Positions 35,646 through 61,378 of a DNA stretch of 64,000 nt are shown here, in pieces. The position numbers and the translations under genes were made by a program. Positions within the stretch are counted from its first letter, which is position 1, and every line of letters starts with the position of its first letter. A model generated the notes under the pieces. It was not told the origin of the DNA. It made no database searches and saw nothing but the letters and a program-made list of their open reading frames with translations. The stretch comes from Aliidiomarina sedimenti (GTDB taxonomy: Bacteria; Pseudomonadota; Gammaproteobacteria; Enterobacterales; Alteromonadaceae): assembly GCF_003986955.1 (NCBI RefSeq), contig NZ_PIPN01000003.1:124001-188000 (forward strand), read 5' to 3'.

Positions 35646-35805
35646 CTAGCACTCCCGTGGCGACCGCTCAATCTCGCTAGACCCCTTATCTTTCCTGTGA
35701 TTTCAGTTTTTTGAAAAACTGGCGCGCCTCTTGCTAATAGATATAGGCAGATAACTGTACTCTATGTGCATAGTCGAATTCAGCTAAGCAATTAGCAGAT
35801 TAAAA

Positions 35806-36003
35806 GACCTTGGAACGGCTTACAGGGACGTAAGTACTGGACACCGCGTTAGGGAAGACGCAAGAGGACGCAGGGCTGGACGCCCCCATGGAAGACACCT
35901 ACAGGATGTAGCTATGCCAAAGGATTGGTGCCAATGGATGGCAGCTAAGGGACGCGCAGGAAAGATAAGGGACCAGCCCGCAGGATGCGGGCTTTTTTCT
36001 TTC
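35806..36003 (+). ncRNA. CsrB-like (CsrA-sequestering) small RNA
   Basis: No ORF explains this stretch, yet 14 GGA triplets occur between 35812 and 35985, about one per 12 bases, mostly as AGGA, GGGA or TGGA. Two lie in hairpin loops that fit the CsrA target consensus: CTTAC-AGGGAC-GTAAG (35819-35834) and CTACAGGATGTAG (about 35900-35912). The end is a strong terminator with AGGA in its loop and a run of T. This is the architecture of the CsrB/CsrC/RsmZ RNAs, which titrate the translational regulator CsrA under control of BarA/UvrY-type systems. The 5' end is approximate. I found no clear UvrY/GacA box (TGTAAG-N6-CTTACA) upstream. Confidence 0.85.
35975..36003 (+). terminator. Terminator of the CsrB-like RNA
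   Basis: AGCCCGC, loop AGGAT, GCGGGCT, then six T and a CTTTCT tail. The loop carries the last GGA motif of the RNA. Confidence 0.9.
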
Positions 36004-42224: not shown

Positions 42225-42247
42225 GCAAAAAGGCCCGCATCGCTCGG

Positions 42248-42400
42248 GGAGGGTGACACTGGCTGCTTCCCGGGCAGGTGGGGGTTCTGTTTTGGGAGAC
42301 GCCGTAAACCCGTCCCTGGGGGCTTGACGGCCGCATCCCTGCGGCCGACACTCCCAAAAGCAGAACTCCCCACCCGCCCGCGCAGCCAGCGTCACCCTCC
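42248..42400 (+). repeat. Large palindromic element E1 (plus orientation)
   Basis: Left arm 42248-42298 pairs with right arm 42351-42400, with few mismatches and several G-T pairs. Between them a core of about 50 bases carries two small hairpins (ACCC...GGGG and GGCCGC-ATCCCT-GCGGCC), so the whole can fold as a long stem with a three-way top. It lies 23 bases after purL. It shares its core with E2-E4 in this window. No coding frame in it looks real. It may act as the purL end signal. I do not recognise it as a named family. Confidence 0.85.
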
Positions 42401-42545
42401 ACTCAACACCTGTGCGCTATTTAACGAATCCATAAACTAACAACGTCACTGTTTCTTGGGCCACGTCTTTCGTGGCTTAACATGTGTTATTTGTTGGAGT
42501 AAGGGAGTCACGGAGAAAGACCGACGTGGGCTATGGACGCTTGCC
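42401..42545. other. Spacer between palindromic elements E1 and E2
   Basis: Non-coding, AT-richer than the elements. It contains one modest hairpin (GCCACG-TCTT-CGTGGC near 42461-42476) and nothing else I can assign. Confidence 0.5.
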
Positions 42546-42696
42546 GGGCGTAGGATTGGCCGCGCGGAGGGGTGGGGGATTCTGCTTTTGGGGGCGTTGA
42601 GCGCATGGATGCGCGAACCGAGCCTACATGGATGTACTTGCGGCGTCCCCCAAAACAGAGCCCCTACCTCTCCGCAAAGCGGTCAACCCTACGCCC
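42546..42696 (-). repeat. Large palindromic element E2 (minus orientation)
   Basis: Same family as E1, reverse orientation. Outer ends GGGCGTAGG (42546-42554) and CCTACGCCC (42688-42696) pair, and the stem continues through the GGAGGGGTGGGGG region and TTCTGCTTTTGGGGG on the left. The core read on the minus strand is GACGCCGCAAGTACATCC...GCGCATCCATGCGC. It faces E1, so the gap between purL and phoA holds an inverted pair. Confidence 0.85.
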
Positions 42697-42721: not shown

Positions 42722-42736
42722 CCTCCCACGGGGCAG

Positions 42737-42762
42737 AAAAAAGCCCGCGGCGCGGGCTTTTT
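42737..42762. terminator. Bidirectional terminator at the phoA 3' end
   Basis: AGCCCGC-GGC-GCGGGCT between an A-run and a T-run; ends phoA on the minus strand and can stop plus-strand read-through from purL. Nearly identical to the hairpin after flgP. Confidence 0.85.
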
Positions 42763-60972: not shown

Positions 60973-61181
60973 GGCGGGTGCCGCTGGCTGCGCGGGCGCG
61001 GTGTGCAGGGCTGACCGCTTTGCGGACGGGCAGGGGTTCTGTTTTGGGGGACGCCGCAAGTACGTCCCTGTAGGCTCGGTTCGCGCATCCATGCGCTCAA
61101 CGCCCCCAAAAGCAGAATCCCCCACCCGCCCACGAGGTCAACTCTGCGCACCTACTACCCGCGCAGCCAGCGACACCCGCC
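60973..61181 (+). repeat. Large palindromic element E3 (plus orientation)
   Basis: The longest copy, 209 bp. The left arm (from 60973, about 78 bases) pairs with the right arm (to 61181) with few mismatches; paired blocks include CGCTGGCTGCGCGGG and TTCTGTTTTGGGGG. The core is almost identical to that of E2 read in reverse (GACGCCGCAAGTACGTCC...GCGCATCCATGCGC). Non-coding. It begins 14 bases after the flgP terminator. Confidence 0.87.
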
Positions 61182-61229
61182 TGGCCATGAAAGATTGGTC
61201 ATAACTGAATCGAGTAAGAAGCAGTGAGA
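61182..61229. other. Spacer between palindromic elements E3 and E4
   Basis: 48 bases of AT-richer sequence with no feature I can support. Confidence 0.5.
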
Positions 61230-61378
61230 AGCCCGGAAAAGGTTGGCGCGGGGGATGAGGCGATGTGCTTTGCTGGGCGTCTCGCGCATGGATGCGCGAG
61301 CCGAGCCCCCAGGGATGGGTTTACGGCGTCCCAGCAAACACATGCCTTGTCCCCCGCAAAGCCAACCTTTGCCGGGCT
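61230..61378 (-). repeat. Large palindromic element E4 (minus orientation)
   Basis: 149 bp. Outer arms AGCCCGG (61230-61236) and CCGGGCT (61372-61378) pair, then AAAGGTTGGC with GCCAACCTTT, and on to GTGCTTTGCTGGG with CCCAGCAAACAC. The arm sequence is quite different from E1-E3, but the core (read on the minus strand GACGCCGTAAACCCATCC...GCGCATCCATGCGC) is the same family. It faces E3 and ends 17 bases before the flgN stop. Confidence 0.87.

Follow-up and report, generated by a model that had tools for sequence, protein, structure and literature searches.

The window analysed here, 64,000 nucleotides from one contig of Aliidiomarina sedimenti, raises the question of what four large palindromic elements, E1 to E4, are, and why their tops stay alike while their stems change. 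All four were found at the positions given by an earlier note, with arms and fold in agreement, and its statement that they are non-coding was confirmed, since no credible gene was seen and the open reading frames that cross them are merely mechanical. The elements, of 149–209 bp, form two inverted pairs, E1/E2 and E3/E4, and once oriented alike they have in common a head of about 55 bases, carried by a stem that is long and imperfect. G-strand is used here for the strand whose loops read GGA, which is the minus strand in E1 and E3 and the plus strand in E2 and E4.

42248–42400, minus strand: E1, whole palindromic element; G-strand (GGA loops) minus; head at 42283–42365.
42401–42545, no strand: spacer of the E1/E2 inverted pair, which is flipped as one unit in G010, a close relative.
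42546–42696, plus strand: E2, whole palindromic element, its extent taken from the fold; G-strand plus; head at 42580–42662.
42601–42614, plus strand: hairpin 2 of E2, GCGC-ATGGAT-GCGC (CANGGANG).
42624–42637, plus strand: top of hairpin 1 of E2, CTAC-ATGGAT-GTAC, with 10 of the 12 positions of the CsrA SELEX consensus RUACARGGAUGU, missing only both R.
60973–61181, minus strand: E3, whole element with two-layered arms (by eye); G-strand minus; head at 61035–61117.
61230–61378, plus strand: E4, whole element; G-strand plus; head at 61263–61345.

Along the G-strand the head runs through the outer stem, hairpin 2 (e.g., GCGC-ATGGAT-GCGC), a short linker, hairpin 1, and GTC. Hairpin 1 is made of GCC, three variable pairs, an ANGGAN loop, a one-sided bulge of five nucleotides (YTTRC) and GGC, its GCC/GGC base sitting under the bulge. 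The pairs reported earlier were recovered, i.e., CCC/GGG in hairpin 1 of E1 and E4 and TAC/GTA in that of E2 and E3, as well as GGCCGC/GCGGCC in hairpin 2 of E1 and GCGCAT/ATGCGC in that of E2–E4. The outer arms are 95% complementary in E1 (42248–42266/42382–42400), 96% in E3 (60973–60996/61158–61181) and 94% in E4 (61230–61247/61361–61378); in the three elements compared the arm ends are without TA termini, reading GG..CC in E1 and E3 and AG..CT in E4. Integron attC sites, for their part, carry RYYYAAC/GTTRRRY core sites at their ends. Folding of the two elements that were scored gave a z-score of -12.5 for the minus strand of E1 and -10.2 for the plus strand of E4 (200 dinucleotide shuffles each), and no shuffle was as stable as either. 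The core pattern, with up to three mismatches, has four matches in the window versus 0.06 expected. That the repeat family and its fold are real is near certain.

In the genome of this strain (2.85 Mb), a pattern search and R1, a covariance model made from the strain's own copies, gave nine strong copies at five places, namely four complete inverted pairs and one place with a full copy beside a cut-off copy; a tenth match of R1 had an E value of 0.5. Seven of the nine copies lie inside 70 kb of one contig, and their neighbours, as identified by reading translations and without a family search, include purL, alkaline phosphatase, and flagellar and chemotaxis genes.

The earlier note knew of no named family for these elements; however, their head is that of YPAL/RU-2, printed in Table 1b of PMC2759123, so an already named repeat family does match. 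In local matches to RU-2, 41 of 47 positions are identical in E2 (RU-2 70–118), 46 of 52 in E4, 39 of 47 in E3 and 41 of 56 in E1, with scores of 54, 49, 44 and 32, respectively; the highest score among 200 shuffled versions of E4 was 25. The local match ends at the head, leaving the outer arms unaligned, and RU-2 itself has the loops AAGGAT and ATGGAT. Model R1 also finds the copies of Yersinia similis, two of the three compared being identical to RU-2 at 164 of 167 positions and the third at 160 of 167. Judged from these alignments, E1–E4 are very probably kin of YPAL/RU-2, and because the head is homologous while the arms and the pair layout are different, they are best described as a variant of the YPAL kind. 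The main paper on YPAL is reportedly that of De Gregorio in 2006. The accounts considered here, each available in part, are those of PMC2229807, PMC2267715, PMC2847712 and PMC2759123. In the available portion of PMC2229807, YPAL is described from Yersinia and Erwinia carotovora as a repeat of about 168 bp, with target duplications of variable length (3–26 bp) and with targets located at sites of dyad symmetry or beside them; a table in the portion of PMC2847712 also counts three in E. coli. As far as these extracts go, the likeness extends to the homologous head, a similar length (167–168 bp in YPAL), a long hairpin, intergenic location, often near terminators, and presence or absence among relatives. 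In contrast to YPAL, the elements here stand mostly as inverted pairs of fixed orientation, some of them flipped, and the hosts of their kin reach far outside Yersinia and Erwinia. In the open-licence literature no paper contains both words YPAL and CsrA. Rfam gave no match in the window at gathering score; the sub-threshold matches, mostly of microRNA type and led by mir-4891 (E 5e-8, 43.5 bits versus a gathering score of 100), were discarded. The Rfam model Ysr224 (RF02770, Yersinia sRNA 224) matches all five loci tested, L001, L002, L004, L006 and L007, weakly, below its gathering score (E 0.011–7.7).

Model R1, built from the nine copies of the own genome, has matches in 28 of 58 near genomes, the own one included, and in 15 of 17 of the genus; across the class it has them in at least 75 of 369 genomes (67 of 272 genera) and across the phylum in at least 30 of 398, none of the 30 lying outside the own class. 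The presence of the family in many other gammaproteobacteria is thus borne out, well beyond the four copies of the earlier note. At most 12 candidates per genome were scored in the class scan and at most 11 in the phylum scan, so that carriers and copy numbers are lower bounds and some genomes counted without elements may have some. The exact head pattern occurs in at least 118 stretches of named genomes, which include members of Stenotrophomonas, Yersinia, Erwinia, Pantoea, Vibrio, Marinobacter, Methylomonas, Arenimonas and Ectothiorhodospira; Pseudidiomarina (loci L123, L200 and L202) is also a named carrier. Where up to 150 candidates were scored in each genome, copies number 132 in S. maltophilia SJTL3, 86 in Y. 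similis and at least 150 in Methylotuvimicrobium buryatense 5G. A BLAST search of plasmids and phages with the 83-base head of E3 gave no match, a weak test given that heads diverge. Some congeners have same-strand tandem arrays (L063, L064 and L065 in G015, L066 in G016) with spacings of about 150–250 bases, frequently 174; short CCAACGCGGTGCGTTGG palindromes accompany some of them. Two elements (206–288 and 1964–2046) were also seen in L218, a contig of a Desulfobulbaceae MAG labelled as outside the Gammaproteobacteria, which may be a binning error.

The proposal that compensatory changes keep the fold while the sequence changes held up on both alignments examined. In a MAFFT alignment of 34 heads, hand-picked for diversity and not fitted to the structure, 89.0% of the cells pair and 26 of 29 pairs have two-sided changes, with 278 two-sided cells versus 91 (sd 8.5) after shuffling and at most 100 when partners are slid. 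In the model-fitted alignment A5 (95 distinct of 96 rows) these values are 96.3% and 27 of 29, with 904 two-sided cells versus 264 (sd 20) and at most 175, respectively. Likewise, two-sided changes are found in 17 of the 30 predicted pairs among the nine own copies. The covarying top of the fold is therefore strongly supported. A total of 304 matches were aligned (103, 105 and 96), of which 252 were used for the analysis of arms and wobble pairs, and in 163 of these 252 pairing continues in the arms outside the model.

Template-switch correction of the DNA during replication can keep the arms of long palindromes complementary; for this reason, covariation of the arms alone is no proof of an RNA function, and such correction could be the source of part of the covariation. 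The stronger form of this explanation, that the covariation is mostly the product of quasi-palindromes being made perfect by template switching, with no RNA function needed, falls somewhat short of an even chance. It agrees with the finding that arms match within a copy at 0.59 and between copies at 0.38 (163 copies), although the within-copy value is raised because these copies were chosen for having arms. It also agrees with paired changes within one and the same element, where GTGGGG/CCCCAC in G000 corresponds to ATGAGG/CCTCAT in G010 (the PurL fragments of the own genome and G010 are 99% identical); these changes are compatible with both readings, at the RNA and at the DNA level. Nevertheless, correction of this kind cannot conserve unpaired loops or a one-sided bulge, nor can it make G-U outnumber A-C on one strand. 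Such an excess was found beyond the model, where the G-strand has 315 GT versus 229 AC (p 2.6e-4; by element 81 to 38), and it favours the view that the G-strand acts in single-stranded form, as RNA or as DNA. The larger excess in the outer stem of the model-fitted alignments (207 G-U versus 31 A-C) was set aside in favour of these counts because the model fit prefers G-U.

The CANGGANG loops are what the earlier note missed, as it did the inverted-pair rule and the inversions described below. All four elements carry CANGGANG in both loops, and the new observation is that this motif stands in both top hairpins on one strand while the stems vary. Among 137 distinct copies out of 148 found by the model, the full motif is present in hairpin 2 of 132, in hairpin 1 of 127 and in both of 123, in a sample that leans toward such loops since the copies used to make the model all had ANGGAN loops. 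At the successive fixed positions of CA.GGA.G, these 137 copies show C in 134, A in 134, G in 134, G in 135, A in 136 and G in 134 for hairpin 2, and 131, 135, 133, 134, 135 and 133 for hairpin 1, whereas the loop base after the first A is any of the four and the base after GGA varies. The pattern search fixes hairpin 1 and leaves hairpin 2 untouched; in the 155 distinct copies that it found (of 156), hairpin 2 has CANGGANG in 133 and begins its loop with A in 138, and both loops have the motif in 128.

In the accessible part of PMC3791407, the target of CsrA/RsmA is given as ANGGAN, and in that of PMC7652899 the SELEX consensus is RUACARGGAUGU, mostly in hexaloops with AC/GU pairing, the selection having favoured weak stems. 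In the elements, hairpin 1 has three pairs above the bulge and hairpin 2 is longer. By sequence, the CANGGANG loops match the target motif of CsrA/RsmA and are kept while the stems vary; the resemblance of the tips to CsrA-bound RNA hairpins suggests that the repeats may feed into Csr control. As a comparison of how they would work, the CsrB, CsrC, RsmY and RsmZ sRNAs likewise present hairpins with ANGGAN loops closed by C-G; in contrast, the elements have two such sites instead of many, a long outer stem, a scattered distribution, and no promoter that could be found. The gene csrA was found in 70 of the 75 element-bearing genomes and in 243 of the 294 others of the class scan (p 0.02), and among good genomes in 60 of 61 versus 220 of 253 (p 0.006); of the five element-bearing genomes in which it was not found, four are less than 90% complete and one (G252) is 98% complete. 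This association is weak evidence because csrA is so common in the class. Overall, CsrA as the reason for the conservation of the head has, in our estimate, about an even chance of being correct.

The same window also holds a separate candidate for a CsrB-like RNA.

35773–36002, plus strand: candidate CsrB-like sRNA, separate from the elements; matched by the Rfam CsrB model with E 2.2e-6 and 29.7 bits, short of its gathering score of 71.

With 14 GGA in 230 bases, this stretch is richer in the motif than any other of the window, whichever strand is read, and it has seven ANGGA and a terminator-like hairpin with a T run at its 3' end; its fold is no more stable than that of shuffled sequence (z -0.6), and it is matched as well in the close relative G010 (C8:4438–4667, E 5e-6). 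Its hairpins TTACAGGGACGTAA and GCCAATGGATGGCA can be set beside CTACAGGGACGTAC of E3 and GCGCATGGATGCGC of E2–E4; TTACAGGGACGTAA and CTACAGGGACGTAC differ in two of fourteen bases, and the heads therefore resemble parts of a CsrA decoy of the host's own type. Matches to the CsrB model at E of 0.001 or less were observed in 24 of 58 near genomes, nine of them over the cut-off, and in some relatives (G050, G042 and G044 among those with matches) two or more stand side by side.

The reading that we prefer, with an even chance of being right, is that E1–E4 are non-coding, non-autonomous palindromic repeats of mobile type, belonging to the Gammaproteobacteria, whose heads would be conserved for binding CsrA/RsmA, with YPAL/RU-2 of Yersinia as the putative named branch of the family. 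The unit would consist of a long imperfect stem, specific in sequence to each copy yet complementary within it, capped by the conserved head. On the G-strand, the head would offer two ANGGAN hexaloop hairpins closed by C-G, that is, a two-site module of CsrB type for one CsrA dimer, kept stable by the stem. RNA copies of the G-strand could then bind CsrA/RsmA, acting as a decoy or protecting or marking the RNA that carries them. Transcription of the G-strand, binding of CsrA and any effect on the Csr system are steps that we infer from these features.

How the elements lie with respect to genes bears on which RNA would carry them. In 97 cases the genes on both sides run in the same direction, and relative to them the G-strand is antisense 60 times and sense 37 times (p 0.025, naive ORFs); the element closest to the end of purL is antisense in all nine genomes that have one there, which are perhaps not independent. 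Given this orientation, UCC would be seen more often than GGA in ordinary read-through RNA. The search for sigma-70-like promoters gave none at the E1/E2 or the E3/E4 pair, and the gene orientation and the missing promoters speak against a simple read-through sponge. An independent sRNA gene in the pair spacer was also rejected, there being no promoter and the spacer being poorly conserved (that of E1/E2 is hardly alike in G010). A replichore bias of single copies, with p 0.02 in one genome and 0.22 in another among the matches listed, was not used. In 219 classified copies, which include 46 with their midpoint inside an ORF of more than 150 aa and leave out two duplicates and 83 without usable flanks, convergent flanks exceed divergent ones (85 versus 37), and the elements read by eye stand soon after stop codons or terminators. 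Both observations would suit 3'-end mRNA elements that lie at terminators and stabilize or destabilize the upstream transcript, the GGA loops having no special role; a part in mRNA stability at 3' ends was proposed for YPAL in the portion of PMC2229807 available. This explanation does not account for the loops, whose positions rank with the best conserved although the stem sequence drifts, and we consider it rather unlikely.

The pairs, in turn, keep to a rule. Among the matches listed for S. maltophilia (108 of 132 copies), the G-strands diverge in 30 of 30 close neighbours, whose starts are 229–336 bases apart, and the four complete pairs of this strain are oriented in the same diverging way; in M. 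buryatense there is no close pair among the 42 copies listed. Compared with G010, the E1/E2 block (42248–42696) gives an alignment score of 537 inverted versus 246 uninverted and the E3/E4 block (60973–61378) 505 versus 295, and G010 keeps the order of the flanking genes at both (loci L077 and L078); the two other complete pairs are unflipped, so that two of four are inverted. By eye, the outer parts of the arms are in place and the inner parts are exchanged, and therefore the arms are mosaics. Just after purL a match is present in nine of 17 congeners (the own genome included, and one cut by a contig end) and there is none in eight; the empty sites show, by eye, a terminator-like hairpin in six of the eight and other repeats in one. 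Beside the E1/E2 pair two short stretches were marked by eye:

42225–42238, no strand: possible left target-site duplicate GCAAAAAGGCCCGC, half of a terminator stem by the purL stop codon (no statistic).
42733–42748, no strand: possible right target-site duplicate GCAGAAAAAAGCCCGC, overlapping the intact hairpin at 42738–42762.

The half terminator stem beside purL resembles, by eye, the intact one across the pair, making a duplicate of 14–16 bp inside a terminator possible at E1/E2; none was seen by eye at E3/E4.

These findings would fit a head that serves as a DNA signal, i.e., as single-stranded DNA or a cruciform recognized by a transposase or recombinase, with the inverted-pair rule and the inversions as footprints of the enzyme and the likeness to ANGGAN a coincidence or a convergence. 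The fixed orientation, the block inversion at two of the four complete pairs and the nested, two-layered arms (by eye) point in this direction, as do the G-strand being without sense preference and the conserved YTTRC bulge and GGCGTC beside the loops, for which CsrA offers no explanation. On the other hand, the freedom of both N positions while A, GGA and the closing C-G are mostly fixed is the CsrA pattern, and no enzyme was found among the Y1 transposases. The latter were not found in six of the 28 element-bearing near genomes, and of 27 Y1 loci tested (10 of many places in near genomes and 17 of 17 of a second Y1 set) not one lies within 1.5 kb of a convincing element, and one has a weak match (E 0.08); in S. 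maltophilia SJTL3, all four Y1 genes lack an R1 element in that range. A DNA signal as the main reason for the head appears rather unlikely.

The Y1 loci also bear on whether the elements are REP/BIME or REPIN units moved by RAYT transposases, to which they are alike in being palindromic, intergenic and often in inverted pairs. The available part of PMC3733652 describes self-complementary inverted repeats around a Y1 gene of S. maltophilia K279a (TIRYT, ORF 1152), which are likened to E1–E4 as far as their description goes. Stretches of 15–33 bases beside Stenotrophomonas elements match Y1 loci (BLAST), and we read these as REP units outside the elements, lying beside both. REP units are, however, as the earlier note had rightly said, much shorter (20–40 bp), and in the extract of PMC3733652 they are tagged with GTAG and linked to RAYT; the elements have no constant GTAG tag (GTAG in E2/E3, GGGG in E1/E4), Y1 is not needed and no element was found beside it, and around nine Stenotrophomonas-type Y1 loci there are other, mostly short inverted repeats. 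Membership in this group was rejected on size, tag and lack of Y1 linkage, and is highly improbable. In the Stenotrophomonas loci L135, L184 and L233, by eye, the pair spacers have short REP-like palindromes and the elements have inner ends TTCGACAG/CTGTCGAA or a near form.

A further, speculative and rather unlikely extension of the CsrA reading is that class-wide mobile palindromes captured a CsrB hairpin and became portable two-site docking places for CsrA. Copy number, from nine to at least 150, would then let a selfish repeat tune or exploit CsrA, a global post-transcriptional regulator of its host, and the lie or flip of an element would set whether neighbouring transcripts carry GGA or UCC, the latter of which could kiss the loops of CsrB.

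With these results, a repeat described mainly in Yersinia becomes a widespread gammaproteobacterial family with a concrete, testable biochemical handle. Even without CsrA, the strict pair orientation, the flipping and the turnover of the arms would point to a mode of moving or rearranging hairpin DNA beyond the accounts of YPAL and REP cited here, as far as their extracts go. If CsrA does bind the heads, transcriptome and CLIP studies may have overlooked a large and variable pool of CsrA sites, and the copy number of the repeat would act as an inherited setting for the Csr system.
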